Source: an uncultured Alcanivoracaceae bacterium (GTDB taxonomy: Bacteria > Pseudomonadota > Gammaproteobacteria > Xanthomonadales > Marinicellaceae). Taken from it: a stretch of 44,808 bases of DNA. The stretch covers positions 1 through 44,808 of the forward strand of contig CAJXVJ010000004.1 of assembly GCA_913061105.1 (NCBI GenBank). Direction: 5' to 3'. Below the pieces are notes generated by a model that saw only the letters and a program-made list of their open reading frames with translations, was not told the origin of the DNA and did not search any database. The position numbers were made by a program, and so were the translations under genes. Shown here piece by piece: positions 9,980-32,805 of the stretch (position 1 is its first letter; the number at the start of each line of letters is the position of its first letter).

Positions 9980-11772
9980 ATAGCGTATTAAAAAAAACAA
10001 TCACAGTCTCAGTGACTGTTCTTATTGGCTTACAATTGTGGCTGGTTTTTTATTTACAATTATTTGGTGATGAAGCTTTTTATTGGCTAGAGGGTCAGTA
10101 TTTAGCGCTGTCTTATTCAGAACTACCAGGCTGGACTGCATGGATGATACGTTTAGGCACTTCTGTTTTTGGCAACCATTATTTTGCGGTAAGATTCATG
10201 TCATATGCCGCTTTTTTAAGTATTTTTATTGCTTTATATTTGATTAATTCAAGACTGAATAATAAAAATATTCGCAGCATTAATTCTTTGGTTTTGCTAT
10301 CAATGCCATTGCTTGTTTTGATTGCGGTTATGGCGTTGCCCGATGTGTGGTTAATATTTTTCACCCTTTGGATTGTTTATTATTTTTTAAAAGCCAGCCA
10401 AGACAATAATATAACTGATTGGATTGTTCTCGGGATTATTTTGGCCTGTAGTATCAATGTCCATGTGCGCATGTGGATTTGGTTGTTTTTTGCAGGTCTT
10501 TCATTTTTGGTTTGTTTTCGATCACATCCAAAAATTATTAAGCCCTTATTATTGATAACGTTGCCTTTGACTTTACTGGGTTTGGTTCCTGTATTGATTT
10601 TTAATTACCACAATGATTTTGCTTTATTCGCCTTTCAATTTGGTCAGCGACATCCTTGGCAATTTCAGTCCCAAAACTTTAGCTTTTTGTTTTCACAATT
10701 ATTGGTAATTACTCCGGTAGTCTTCTATTTGTGGCTAAAAAGTGTGTTTACAATTAAACACTATTTTAAGCAAACACCAATAGTTGGCTGGATTCTATTA
10801 ACAGCGATGATGCATTGGTTGTTTTATGTTGTAATGAGTTTGTTTGTAGATGGTTTACGAACCACTGTTCATTGGTTGTTGATTTCATATGTTCCTGTAT
10901 TGGCGCTATCTACTTATTTAATTAAGAATAAAATATTGCTGAGGGTGGCAGTTTTTTCTGGAGGTTTGGTTTCACTGTGCCTTTTGTTGTTTTTAAGTTT
11001 AAATAAGCACACCCAATCAAATTTACAAGCCAGAATGTTAGATAATTCTATGGGATGGTATGAACTTTCAGAGTCTGTTAGACGACTACAAGAACAACAT
11101 AATACCGAGTATCTTATTGCTGATTATTTCATGACAGCATCAGAGTTGGCTTTTGAGTTAGGTCATCCTAATTCAATGAAGGTTTTGCCGCATTCAAAAA
11201 ATCAAAAACATGGACGCCAAAAGCAATTACAAATCATGAACAGGTTATTGCAGGATCCTAAAGATTTTAAGCACAGAGCATTATTGGTCATAGAAGATTC
11301 TGGTTTGAAATTACAAGACAAAGGCAAATATTATATACAGCTGTGTGATTATTTTAATCAGTTAGTGTTTTTAGAATCGGTCAATATTGACAACAGTAAA
11401 AAACAGTTTCATCTATTTGAAGTTAACAATGATACTAAGCAAGGGAATTCCTGTCAATTTCCTCCACTTTTTTATATAGATCACAAAATTGACGACCAAT
11501 TCATTGAAATATCTGGATGGTCAATTATACACAATTCAAGCATTCAATCATTATCAGTGGTCTCTGCAAATGATACTTATCCAGTTGAAAATACAAAGAT
11601 AACAAATAATGGCATTGCTGATATGTTTCCAGAAATTAAAGATAATAACCTGCCAGATAGCGCCTTTAACATCAGGCTTCCGATAACAAGTATTAAAAAC
11701 AATACATACAAATTTATTGTCGTCAGCAGTGACAATAATAAATATTTATCACAAAATTATTTTTTAGATTGA
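9973..11772 (+). CDS. GT39/ArnT-like membrane glycosyltransferase
   Basis: Polytopic inner-membrane protein of 599 residues. After the first helix it has the acidic GDEAFYW motif on the first periplasmic loop, the hallmark of GT-C enzymes (PMT/ArnT/GT39) that transfer sugars from polyprenyl-phosphate carriers. About ten further hydrophobic segments reach to about residue 340; the remaining 260 residues form a soluble, presumably periplasmic domain with a beta-rich end. The acceptor could be a glycolipid, lipid A or protein; sequence alone does not tell. The likely start is GTG at 9973 (or TTG at 9976), overlapping the mltD stop, without a clear Shine-Dalgarno sequence, which suggests coupling to mltD translation. 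The sigma factor gene follows 32 bases downstream. Confidence 0.78.
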   Translation: MLNSVLKKTITVSVTVLIGLQLWLVFYLQLFGDEAFYWLEGQYLALSYSELPGWTAWMIRLGTSVFGNHYFAVRFMSYAAFLSIFIALYLINSRLNNKNIRSINSLVLLSMPLLVLIAVMALPDVWLIFFTLWIVYYFLKASQDNNITDWIVLGIILACSINVHVRMWIWLFFAGLSFLVCFRSHPKIIKPLLLITLPLTLLGLVPVLIFNYHNDFALFAFQFGQRHPWQFQSQNFSFLFSQLLVITPVVFYLWLKSVFTIKHYFKQTPIVGWILLTAMMHWLFYVVMSLFVDGLRTTVHWLLISYVPVLALSTYLIKNKILLRVAVFSGGLVSLCLLLFLSLNKHTQSNLQARMLDNSMGWYELSESVRRLQEQHNTEYLIADYFMTASELAFELGHPNSMKVLPHSKNQKHGRQKQLQIMNRLLQDPKDFKHRALLVIEDSGLKLQDKGKYYIQLCDYFNQLVFLESVNIDNSKKQFHLFEVNNDTKQGNSCQFPPLFYIDHKIDDQFIEISGWSIIHNSSIQSLSVVSANDTYPVENTKITNNGIADMFPEIKDNNLPDSAFNIRLPITSIKNNTYKFIVVSSDNNKYLSQNYFLD

Positions 11773-25946: not shown

Positions 25947-28007
25947 TCATTCAAACCCATTTTTAAATATAATTGATTCAATGGCTTCTATCGTAAAGTC
26001 TACAGTGGTAGAAAAATCTTGGCCACCATTACTGGTACCACCAGAATCTTTTAATACCACAGATACATTGGCTATACCTGATGCACTATTTGAAATTGTG
26101 AAAGTTAAATCTCCAGTGTTAAAGTTTACTTTTGGTTGCTCTGAAAAGAACCCACTCGCAGGGAAGGTTGTGATAATAAAACTAGCTGTTTGTGAATTTT
26201 CGTTAATGGGGCCGACACTGATTTCTGAAGCCCATTCTGGCAATGTTTGAAATTGATCCAATGGGGCGTTGATTACAAGTTCATCAGCAGTAAATGAAGG
26301 CGCATCATTAACGGGTAAAATGTCCAAATGCATGTTAGCCATTGCCTTGTTGCTTTGGTCAGTGATGGAATATTCTAGTTGAGCTTGTCCATTGGTATCA
26401 AGGTTGTTAGTCACAAATTGGATATCACCATTAATACCTATAATGCCCACCCCTGGAATACTGCTGGTATTGAAATCGAAAGCAAATGGCTCTAATACGA
26501 TTAATGGATTATTGTCGGTGTCGTTACTCAGTAACCCATTTGCAACAGATATTAACAGTGACTGACCTTCTAATATCTGATAGTTATCGTCAATTGCATC
26601 AGGAACTGGGTTGGCAGAATTGGTATCTAGCTCTATGGCTCCAATATCGCAACCATTTAATGAGTTGTTTATATTGGGATTATCAAAAATTCTGTTTCCC
26701 GAATTAAGATTGTGAAAATTTCTTTGGTCAGCGGTTTCCGTGTCACATTTACCATGGTCTACTACAACACTATTACTCATTGGCATATGCGTTAGAGTAG
26801 GGCCGCCATTATTGCTAATAATTGTTAAAAGCGGATCCAATGGAGTAATTGAGTCACCAACTAAATCATTATTAATGTTTGGCTGGCCACTTGGAAATTC
26901 ACCAGAAACTGTTGAATTGTCTCCAATTAAGTTATAGCCCAAGCTATCAAAGTTTCCTGTTAAATCAGGAGCGTTATTGGTGCTGTTGTCACTATTTTCT
27001 GCAACAATTGTATTAAGCATTTGTAAGTTAAAAGTCGAGCTGTTGAAAATTGCGCCACCAGTTGCATTTGTTTCTTGGTCTTGGACATCAGATTTATTCT
27101 TGGTAAATGTAGAGTGTTTAATCGTGACCTCTGAGCTATCAATGACTGATGACAAGGCACCCACAGCAACGGCTCCTCCGCGTCCGGTAGTTCGGTTATT
27201 AGAGAAAGTAGAGTTTGTTATTGAAGTAGTTGTGAGGAATAAATCGTTAGACCTAATAAGTATTGCACCCCCAGCAACAGTTTCAGGGCTAACACTCGTA
27301 TTTCGAGCTGCATTATTTAAAAACGTTGAATTTTCAATCTTGACATTCAAACTTGCACCCACTAACACAGCTCCTCCTCCAAATAAGGTTTCATTGTTTG
27401 AGTCGACATCGTTATTTGAAAATTGACAGTTTTTAATAAAAACCCTGTTATTATTTGAAGGAAATCCAGCAAGGCTTACTGCACCACCACCAGAATCTGC
27501 ACGGTTGTTGTCAAAATACAGGCGGTTTAATGTTAACTGTGTGTCAGCAGAAATTATGGCATACAAGGCGCCACCATCTGTATCAATATTTGGATCTAAA
27601 ACGTTGTTTATTAAAGAAAGGTCAGATATTAAAAATTCTGCCAGTCCTGCCGTGTTTTGGATTTTAAATACACGAGTACCAAGTTGATTTGTAAACGACA
27701 AAAGGTCTCTTCCTGGGCCACGGATTGCTACAGACTCACTAATTTCTATTGGGTCGGCTAAATCTATGTGTGCTGGTAGAATAATTGCATCGAATTCTAT
27801 GATATCAATTATTGGTGCAATCTCACCTGCTACACATTCTCCAATTGTAGCTCCAGAAGCGATATTATCATTCGCAGCTGCAATGGCTTCATGCATAGTA
27901 CATTTACCATCATCTGCTGCAGCCAATAAAAATTCAGTGGTATTAACCACAATGGTGGCTGCAGGCGTTCCTGTAGTAATAATTAATAATAGCAATATTT
28001 TCTTCAT
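25947..28007 (-). CDS. Secreted CSLREA/beta-helix-like protein with GFE tail
   Basis: A 686-residue exported protein. After a signal peptide (MKKILLLLIITTGTPAATI) comes a CSLREA-like segment (KCTMHEAIAAAND, near residue 35), then a right-handed parallel beta-helix region of about 300 residues with many Asn-rich turns (FSNNRTTGRGGAV, STFNLQMLNTIVAENS), a LTHMPMSNS / CDIGAIELD choice-of-anchor-like end, a cadherin-like stretch ending ILPVNDAPSF, and one copy of the Y module seen in the protein at 310-2523 (SGGTSNGG turn). It ends in IFKNGFE. The role could be adhesion or polysaccharide binding; no catalytic site is evident. The frame opens at a TTG (28019), but the ATG at 28007 gives the natural signal peptide and lies close after an AGG. 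The promoter at 28048-28076 has phased repeats. Confidence 0.8.
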   Translation of the reverse strand: MKKILLLLIITTGTPAATIVVNTTEFLLAAADDGKCTMHEAIAAANDNIASGATIGECVAGEIAPIIDIIEFDAIILPAHIDLADPIEISESVAIRGPGRDLLSFTNQLGTRVFKIQNTAGLAEFLISDLSLINNVLDPNIDTDGGALYAIISADTQLTLNRLYFDNNRADSGGGAVSLAGFPSNNNRVFIKNCQFSNNDVDSNNETLFGGGAVLVGASLNVKIENSTFLNNAARNTSVSPETVAGGAILIRSNDLFLTTTSITNSTFSNNRTTGRGGAVAVGALSSVIDSSEVTIKHSTFTKNKSDVQDQETNATGGAIFNSSTFNLQMLNTIVAENSDNSTNNAPDLTGNFDSLGYNLIGDNSTVSGEFPSGQPNINNDLVGDSITPLDPLLTIISNNGGPTLTHMPMSNSVVVDHGKCDTETADQRNFHNLNSGNRIFDNPNINNSLNGCDIGAIELDTNSANPVPDAIDDNYQILEGQSLLISVANGLLSNDTDNNPLIVLEPFAFDFNTSSIPGVGIIGINGDIQFVTNNLDTNGQAQLEYSITDQSNKAMANMHLDILPVNDAPSFTADELVINAPLDQFQTLPEWASEISVGPINENSQTASFIITTFPASGFFSEQPKVNFNTGDLTFTISNSASGIANVSVVLKDSGGTSNGGQDFSTTVDFTIEAIESIIFKNGFE

Positions 28008-28047
28008 ACCTAATCTCAATTTTTAAAATTCATGATTTGAGAATTAT

Positions 28048-28098
28048 AATATACACATTGTTTTGAATCATGACAACACTATGACAATATCCTGACAA
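28048..28098 (-). promoter_or_regulatory. Promoter with three helically phased direct repeats
   Basis: On the minus strand, -35 TTGTCA (28071-28076), 17 bp spacer and -10 TATATT (28048-28053) precede the secreted protein gene. The -35 hexamer recurs exactly at 28082-28087 and 28093-28098, so TTGTCA occurs three times at 11 bp spacing, one helical turn. This is the arrangement used by OmpR/PhoB-family regulators; the Pho box also repeats TGTCA every 11 bp. The -35 to -10 distance is that of an ordinary sigma-70 promoter, unlike classical Pho promoters. Confidence 0.55.
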
Positions 28099-28238
28099 GA
28101 CTGAATCTAGCAGGTAAATATGCACAGAAACAATTTTAAATTATGGTATTTTTTGGTGTTTATAGTATTTAATTGATTCGTGTCAATGTCATCATATGTT
28201 TTTCAATTTAATATGAACCAATAATTTGGAGAAATCAT

Positions 28239-28559
28239 ATGTACAAAAATGCCGAAAAAAATTTAAAAAAAATCAAAAAAGAACTTAAAACCAGAATTAA
28301 ACACATTAAAAAATCTCTCACAGCTACTCGCAGTAAAGATTGGGAAGAAGCGGCAATCGAGGCTGAAAATGACGAGGTGTTAGAGGGTATCTATTCCGAA
28401 TCTACAGCTGAACTAATACAAGTAAAATTTGCGCTGAAAAGAATCAAATCTGGAGATTATGGCGATTGTGCTGAATGTGGTGATGGCATTAATAAAAAGC
28501 GTTTGCAAATAATGCCATATACGTCATTGTGTATACAATGCGCACAGAAACTAGAGTAA
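28239..28559 (+). CDS. TraR/DksA-family zinc finger protein
   Basis: A 106-residue, highly basic protein shorter than DksA (151). A lysine-rich N-terminal helix (1-30) and a helical hairpin with an acidic stretch DWEEAAIEAENDEVLEG (34-50) precede the C4 zinc finger: Cys77, Cys80, Cys98 and Cys101 (CAEC...CIQC). This is the TraR/DksA/YbiI fold, which inserts into the RNA polymerase secondary channel; the short form resembles TraR or stress-linked DksA paralogues. The hairpin-tip residues DxxDxA of DksA are not clearly conserved, so activity on polymerase is uncertain. A good ribosome-binding site (GGAG, seven bases before ATG) is present. It is monocistronic: divergent from the secreted protein gene and convergent with gmk through a terminator. 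Confidence 0.8.
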   Translation: MYKNAEKNLKKIKKELKTRIKHIKKSLTATRSKDWEEAAIEAENDEVLEGIYSESTAELIQVKFALKRIKSGDYGDCAECGDGINKKRLQIMPYTSLCIQCAQKLE

Positions 28560-31669: not shown

Positions 31670-32805
31670 TACCGCCTCCACTAAGTCTGTATATTCATTT
31701 TCCTTGGTGCGTTAAGAAGTGTCCCTACTGTGACTTTAATTCTCATCAATTAAAAGGTTCTATTGATGAAGAGCGTTATATAGATAATTTGATTGCGGAC
31801 TTAGAACAAGACGTGGCCAAAGTGTGGGGCAGACCTGTTCATTCTATATTTATGGGCGGCGGAACACCCAGTTTGTTTTCTGCAGAATCTATTACAAGGT
31901 TGCTTAATGCAGTTCGAGCCTTGTTACAGTGTAAACCTGATATGGAAATCACCATGGAAGTCAACCCTGGCACAGGTGAGTATGACAATTTTGTAGGTTA
32001 CAAACTAGCTGGTGTTAATCGTTTGTCAATGGGTATGCAAAGCCTTAAAGATTCTAATTTAAAAGCATTGGGGCGGATACATTCTTCAGATCAAGCCATT
32101 TCCGTATATCAAAAAGCGCGTCAAGCAGGTTTTGATAACATCAATTTAGATATGATGTTTGCATTGCCAAACCAATCATTGGAGGATGCAAAAGCCGATT
32201 TAGTATCATTGATTGAATTAAAACCAAATCACATTTCTTATTATCAATTGACCATAGAAGCCAATACACTCTTTGCGGTAAAAACTCCTAAAAACATCCC
32301 CAATGATGAGAGTTTGGAATCTATGTATCTGCAGGGAGTACGATTATTAGAAGAAAGTGGCTACAAACAGTATGAAGTTTCAGCTTATGCAAAAAGCAAC
32401 CACAGAAGTCAACACAATGTAAATTATTGGAAATTTGGTGATTACTTGGGAATAGGTGCAGGTGCGCACAGTAAAATTTCATATGGTGCAGACAATAAGA
32501 TTGAAAGGCAGGTTAAATATAAACATCCTCAAATCTACCAAACCTCAGAAGACGGATTTATTCAAGAAACTAAGATTTTAACAACTTCTGATTTGTTGTT
32601 TGAATACATGTTAAATGCTGTTCGCCTTAAACAAAAGATTAATCTCTCGGATTTTTCTGTAAGGACAGGTATTTCATCTGAAAAATTAACAACAAAATTA
32701 GATTTTGCAAATCAAATGAATTGGATAGAAATACAGAAAAATACCTTAATAATCACGCCAAAAGGGTATTTGTTGAGTGATGAAATCCTCAAATTATTGT
32801 TATAA
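31657..32805 (+). CDS. hemW: HemW, radical SAM heme chaperone
   Basis: Cytoplasmic, membrane-associated radical SAM protein that transfers heme to client proteins; often misnamed coproporphyrinogen III oxidase. 382 residues, the usual HemW size. The iron-sulfur cysteines 18, 22 and 25 lie in WCVKKCPYCDFN, followed by FMGGGTPSLF and EVNPGTGEYDNF; no HemN-type extension is present. The GTG at 31657 gives VEQLIPPPLSLYIHFPW, which matches the expected N-terminus, while no ATG lies nearby. It overlaps rdgB. The 252-base gap that follows before pilM contains no gene and no terminator I could recognise. Confidence 0.93.
   Translation: MEQLIPPPLSLYIHFPWCVKKCPYCDFNSHQLKGSIDEERYIDNLIADLEQDVAKVWGRPVHSIFMGGGTPSLFSAESITRLLNAVRALLQCKPDMEITMEVNPGTGEYDNFVGYKLAGVNRLSMGMQSLKDSNLKALGRIHSSDQAISVYQKARQAGFDNINLDMMFALPNQSLEDAKADLVSLIELKPNHISYYQLTIEANTLFAVKTPKNIPNDESLESMYLQGVRLLEESGYKQYEVSAYAKSNHRSQHNVNYWKFGDYLGIGAGAHSKISYGADNKIERQVKYKHPQIYQTSEDGFIQETKILTTSDLLFEYMLNAVRLKQKINLSDFSVRTGISSEKLTTKLDFANQMNWIEIQKNTLIITPKGYLLSDEILKLLL

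Follow-up and report, generated by a model that had tools for sequence, protein, structure and literature searches.

A TCA-centred 11-bp repeat array upstream of a secreted protein gene as a putative operator of a winged-helix activator other than PhoB

Operators of regulators with the OmpR/PhoB-type fold (PF00486) are built of repeats that follow one another head to tail, at intervals of about one helical turn, close to a promoter. The 44,808-nucleotide stretch of DNA analyzed here (the window) carries such repeats upstream of a gene for a secreted protein: TTGTCA begins at 28098, 28087 and 28076 on the minus strand, at a spacing of exactly 11 bp. The original prediction had described these three phased copies, and we confirmed all three positions and the spacing. 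It had proposed that an OmpR/PhoB-type regulator acts there at a Pho box, possibly under phosphate starvation, with the proviso that another member of the family could be responsible. As in PhoB-activated promoters, 11-bp direct repeats with a TGTCA core lie upstream of a -10 element. The question here is whether PhoB or a different winged-helix protein reads this array.

The exact TTGTCA triple occurs once in the whole genome (3,585,364 bases) and its reversed-pattern control does not occur; the numbers expected under a first-order Markov model are 0.0011 for the genome and 1.4e-5 for the window alone. Even when up to 3 mismatches are allowed, no second triple appears in the window (0.15 triples expected). 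Pairs of the form YTGTCAN5YTGTCA number 7 in the genome, versus 8 for the control, so TTGTCA pairs are at chance level and weight is carried only by the triple and its context. The units differ outside TTGTCA, so the array is not a recent tandem duplication. Counted from the T of the last TCA, AATGTG lies at +14, TATATT at +20 and TATAAT at +25 (Table 1), and the site thus has the layout TCA-N8-TCA-N8-TCA-N22-TAnnnT, with period 11 and TAnnnT at +25. This TATAAT, a perfect -10 hexamer 22 bp after the last TTGTCA, was not mentioned in the original prediction. The promoter scan returned a sigma-70-like promoter, TTGTCA-17-TATATT, in which the last repeat matches 5 of 6 positions of the -35 consensus, in agreement with the earlier view that this copy doubles as a -35 element.

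Table 1. Features of the array and its flanking genes in the window
Feature	Position	Strand	Remarks
Unit 1, TTGTCAGGATA	28088..28098	-	without Y at position 7 of the Pho-box pattern
Unit 2, TTGTCATAGTG	28077..28087	-	units 2 and 3 together match the genus Pho-box pattern
Unit 3, TTGTCATGATT, then CAA	28066..28076	-	
TATAAT, probable -10	28043..28048	-	starts 25 nt after the T of the last TCA
TATATT, alternative -10	28048..28053	-	promoter scan, 10/12 matches; 17 bp after the last TTGTCA
Secreted protein gene	25947..28007	-	686 aa from ATG 28007; 690 from TTG 28019
Divergent 106-aa DksA/TraR-type zinc-finger protein	28239..28559	+	

The Pho box of the genus is clear, and the window fits its pattern. 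The perfect pattern, YTGTCAYANNNYTGTCAY, has 12 sites in 11 genus genomes versus 2 control matches, and 11 of the 12 are at phosphate genes (six at pstS, one at a pst/phoU remnant and four at DUF47-pit); the remaining one is the window, where units 2 and 3 match without mismatch and so provide two direct 11-bp repeats with the [CT]TGTCA[TC] core, the minimum for a Pho box. Recurrence upstream of pstS, a check set by the original prediction, was borne out in this genome by TTGTCATAATGTTGTCAT, one spacer base off YTGTCAYANNNYTGTCAY. The genome also encodes a PhoB-like regulator (TIGR02154, 280 bits, below the cut-off of 296) in a pst-phoU cluster, directly after pstB-like and phoU-like genes (those two assigned by eye), and a Na/Pi cotransporter gene has a one-mismatch site some 60 bp upstream. 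The DUF47-pit sites, in four genomes (G000, G010, G005 and G002; loci L110/L008, L139, L142 and L143), are inverted relative to the gene; DUF47 was assigned by Pfam for the G000 copy, and the other three copies and pit by eye. In the pst/phoU remnant (L145, G005:C77), whose PhoU tail was assigned by NCBIfam, the transporter gene downstream is degraded, but a perfect Pho box and -10 remain. Boxes of three units precede some pstS genes in the family. An array of three TGTCA copies before a DUF3450 gene (L327, G008:C41:4534), with pstS on the same contig, is perhaps a true Pho box.

Exact TTGTCA triples are present in only two of 33 family genomes (G000 and G008), and a wide bacterial scan of contigs found them in at least 115 stretches. 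Thirteen proteobacterial loci were examined among the matches listed in that scan. They include pstS-pstC in Thiothrix (by eye), phospholipase C in Acinetobacter, 5'-nucleotidase in a member of the Alteromonadales and an ABC permease in Enterovibrio (the last three by Pfam); several others are plain tandem repeats. Pho boxes can thus take the triple form, which supports the idea that the window holds a true Pho box, from which PhoB~P would activate the secreted protein gene under phosphate starvation at an unusual distance.

It is this distance that argues strongly against an ordinary Pho promoter. Of 20 pstS promoters of the family, 18 have TAnnnT at +14, counted as above, versus AATGTG at the window site, where the -10 is one unit further downstream; the remark in the original prediction that the -10 gap is unlike that of classical Pho promoters was thus well founded. 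The 20 boxes come from 18 of 27 examined loci, the pstS of this genome (L005, at the same position as L049) and the pst/phoU remnant L145; eight further loci (L081, L083, L092, L097, L100, L101, L107 and L108) were dropped for lack of a box or of a readable pstS start, or as near-copies of another locus. When all boxes but L087 were used to train a position-weight model, the window pairs scored 15.2 and 14.4 and each of the 19 training sites at least 19.3; some 12-18 pairs with scores like those of the window are expected by chance in the genome, and the model alone did not settle the assignment. Also unlike the Pho box, units 1 and 3 have spacers that are not A-rich, and the gene has no phosphate link: domain searches with the secreted protein (query starting one codon after the ATG, as in the homologue searches) found no phosphate-related domain.

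Homologous promoters point the same way. At 40% identity or more, the 11 genus genomes hold five genes for this protein, window gene included, and four have a readable upstream region, the G003 homologue being cut off by a contig end. All four show three TCA copies at 11 bp and TAnnnT at +25, a kind of combination for which the expected fraction of such upstream regions is about 0.0005. The hexamers are TATAAT in the window, TAGAAT before the G008 ortholog (which adjoins a wHTH-TPR gene), TAGTAT in G004 and TAATCT before the genome's own paralog on C18, where the +25 fit holds in one of two registers. The TTGTCA triple is absent before the G008, G004 and own-paralog genes and present only in the window copy, so the Pho box is not conserved before orthologous genes. 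As these three homologues keep the layout without the triple, PhoB would not account for them. On geometry and conservation, the site probably does not belong to the PhoB regulon, and we regard a true Pho box as unlikely. As for the original prediction, the fold class of its regulator is probably right, and its PhoB and phosphate part is probably wrong: with +14 vacant and a +25 layout typical of a different group of 11-bp arrays, phosphate induction is not favored and another family member is.

This other group was apparent in related DNA. Among the 33 family genomes, TTGTCAKNNTN in three copies with up to 3 mismatches was also found before secreted proteins in G008 (C31 and C8) and G047 (C91). 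The 29 stretches taken were G000 contigs with lone wHTH matches or secreted-protein relatives, array loci and a few others. A de novo repeat scan of 32 sequences yielded 14 arrays of three units with period 11, every one of them intergenic; for periods 8, 9, 10, 12, 13 and 14 the counts were 4, 9, 2, 15, 0 and 2, of which 2, 0, 0, 0, 0 and 2 were intergenic. Pattern searches had already located four of the period-11 arrays, in L318, L320, L321 and L326 (one each). Several of the arrays adjoin genes for long wHTH regulators with Trans_reg_C and TPR domains, once with PD40. The window array is not among the 14. TCA-N3-TTCAA of its unit 3 is common to arrays in L320, L365 and L306.

The position of the -10 element was then counted in 104 stretches (1,693,701 bases; the window, L053 and L326 left out). 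TCA-N8-TCA-N8-TCA occurs 39 times, overlapping triples of one array included, with TAnnnT at +25 in 11 (3 of them from L320 and L321, which were fetched for their arrays). No other of the 47 offsets has as many; a smaller peak, of 7, lies one repeat unit on, at +36. The controls of period 9 (5/117 at +25) and period 12 (6/139 at +25) had no sharp peak. The binomial tail is 1.3e-7, or about 6e-6 after 47 offsets, in a sample in which many stretches had been chosen for wHTH genes or secreted-protein relatives. Matches at +25 occur in 6 of 17 stretches with a long wHTH gene versus 2 of 87 others (4 of 15 versus 2 of 87 without L320 and L321, p 0.004), and two of the eight stretches with such matches have no wHTH gene. 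These arrays mostly precede secreted proteins, several with FxNGFE-like tails. In the wide bacterial scan, +25 stands out little among the matches listed: non-identical arrays have +25 in 5/62, +14 in 3/62 and +15 in 4/62, and identical-unit arrays have +14 in 7/51 and +25 in 2/51.

Period-11 arrays as a genome-wide class were rejected, as they are not enriched in unselected sequence: 56 content-blind stretches of G008, G009 and G010 (884,604 bases) hold 4 intergenic arrays of period 11, 10 of period 9 and 5 of period 14. The strongest unselected array (L365) is followed after 94 bp by a 1261-aa gene; L388 holds another, next to a wHTH-TPR gene. In 400 kb of G008:C40 devoid of wHTH genes no period-11 array was found, nor any array at the eight FxNGFE-type genes there (one lacks a readable upstream region). 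These results indicate that the arrays go with regulator neighborhoods and not with the protein tail.

PhoB could also act in the window as a repressor or competitor, since the last unit overlaps the -35 element of TTGTCA-17-TATATT, with its near-consensus hexamer and 17-bp spacing. PhoB has been described as a dual regulator depending on site position (PMC10294691), and the inverted Pho box before DUF47-pit is likewise an unconventional placement. Such a role leaves unexplained why homologues and other secreted protein genes have the same +25 layout upstream, and we consider it improbable. A chance repeat or a plain constitutive promoter with no regulator is more improbable still: pairs are at chance level, and 81 of 152 sites (110 stretches) among the matches listed in the wide scan are plain tandem identical 11-mers, but the rarity of the exact triple, the differences among its units and the layout conserved in homologues contradict it.

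A candidate for the non-PhoB activator emerged from G008:C31, in a sister species. Here, four units, ATGTCAGGCTC TTGTCATGGTC TTGTCAGGGTT TTGTCATTATT-CAA, lie between a 755-aa wHTH-TPR gene and the gene for a 1042-aa secreted protein ending in FVFRDDFE; the last three units with CAA are identical to the window array in 29 of 36 bases. The G008 regulator has an ortholog in the window's own genome, on G000:C94, to which it is 60% identical across 673 aa; the relative ranked next reaches about 25%. The two DNA-binding domains agree at 78 of 103 residues and, near the presumed recognition helix, at 17 of 20. The candidate has the composition of a ToxR-like protein, i.e., PF00486 (Trans_reg_C), a hydrophobic span seen by eye that would cross the membrane, and TPR as the sensor part; PADLOC returned a TPR match only. 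No wHTH-TPR gene was found within the window. From these comparisons, the wHTH-TPR regulator on C94 is the likeliest regulator of the window array. Contig C94 ends inside the regulator gene, in adapter-like sequence. In this assembly, contig ends (L005 bases 1-72, L302 bases 1-36 and the end of L120) bear sequences resembling Nextera adapters, which truncate pstS and the C94 regulator gene.

ToxR-like one-component regulators, as described in PMC7496328, are also membrane-anchored wHTH proteins that use direct repeats near the promoter; at ompU, the ToxR boxes are TNAAA-N5-TNAAT at -51 to -37. In contrast, the arrays here have period 11 instead of 10, a TCA core and three to four units, and the candidate regulator has a TPR sensor part. 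The genus arrays before FxNGFE-type genes next to wHTH-TPR genes are closer: they share with the window the period of 11, the TCA core, TAnnnT at +25 and a first unit roughly 70-110 bp before the ATG. They differ in that the window's regulator is not adjacent, and unit sequence varies from pair to pair. Literature searches found no published description of such arrays.

Overall, the window site probably works like an OmpR/PhoB-fold operator. We think it likely, judging from sequence comparisons, that the array is the operator of a non-PhoB winged-helix activator of this fold, most likely a membrane-anchored wHTH-TPR regulator of the ToxR/CadC-like type. Responding to a presumed signal, activator monomers would bind head to tail at the TCA-centred units on one face of the DNA, recruit RNA polymerase to the TATAAT and turn on the gene for the secreted choice-of-anchor Q protein. 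The C94 regulator would be the likeliest activator, given that the gene neighboring its G008 ortholog carries a near-identical TTGTCA array. Several observations count against this reading. Units 2 and 3 fit the Pho pattern, whose other perfect matches are all at phosphate genes; no wHTH-TPR gene turned up within the window, whose array, at 11.3, fell short of the score of 14 required of the other arrays in the de novo scan, and the C94 contig end hides the neighboring gene. In addition, the supporting stretches were selected, 885 kb of unselected sequence has no period-11 excess, and the C40 genes are without arrays.

More tentatively, the genus may have an expanded set of membrane wHTH-TPR regulators, each reading its own TCA-centred 11-bp array upstream of one or a few genes for secreted proteins, in co-diverging pairs; the window operator could then have been re-tuned between paralogous regulators with the -10 geometry fixed. 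A convincing Pho-box match can mislead, as it passes a pattern search and even the test of recurrence at pstS; only promoter geometry and homologous promoters separate the window site from a Pho box. Beyond this site, the results suggest a family of paired regulators and operators whose units can be read and whose -10 distance is fixed. Such pairs would be a natural set for decoding the DNA code of PF00486 recognition helices, and may reveal what controls large secreted proteins in these bacteria.

The flanking genes were also considered. The array lies about 140 bp from the start of the divergent DksA/TraR-type gene, inverted relative to it. A tie to this gene was rejected: none of six genus orthologs (65-75% identity), whose neighbors are mostly different, has an 11-bp TGTCA array upstream. 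The window secreted protein has beta-helix-like repeats, a choice-of-anchor Q domain and the C-terminal sequence IIFKNGFE, and had no match in PADLOC. F-x-N-G-F-E-like C-terminal tails (25950-25967, minus strand, in the window) are frequent in secreted proteins of the group at many loci and are possibly a sorting signal. Upstream of an HTH_3 gene in L318/L166 (G000:C2 near 31857-31884) is an array of four YTGTCA-like units, and an HTH gene of similar appearance in G014 (L292) also has an array next to it. Finally, L305 has two divergent +25-type arrays back to back near 10793-10855, flanked by a 202-aa ORF (a lipoprotein by eye) and the gene for a 1049-aa secreted protein.
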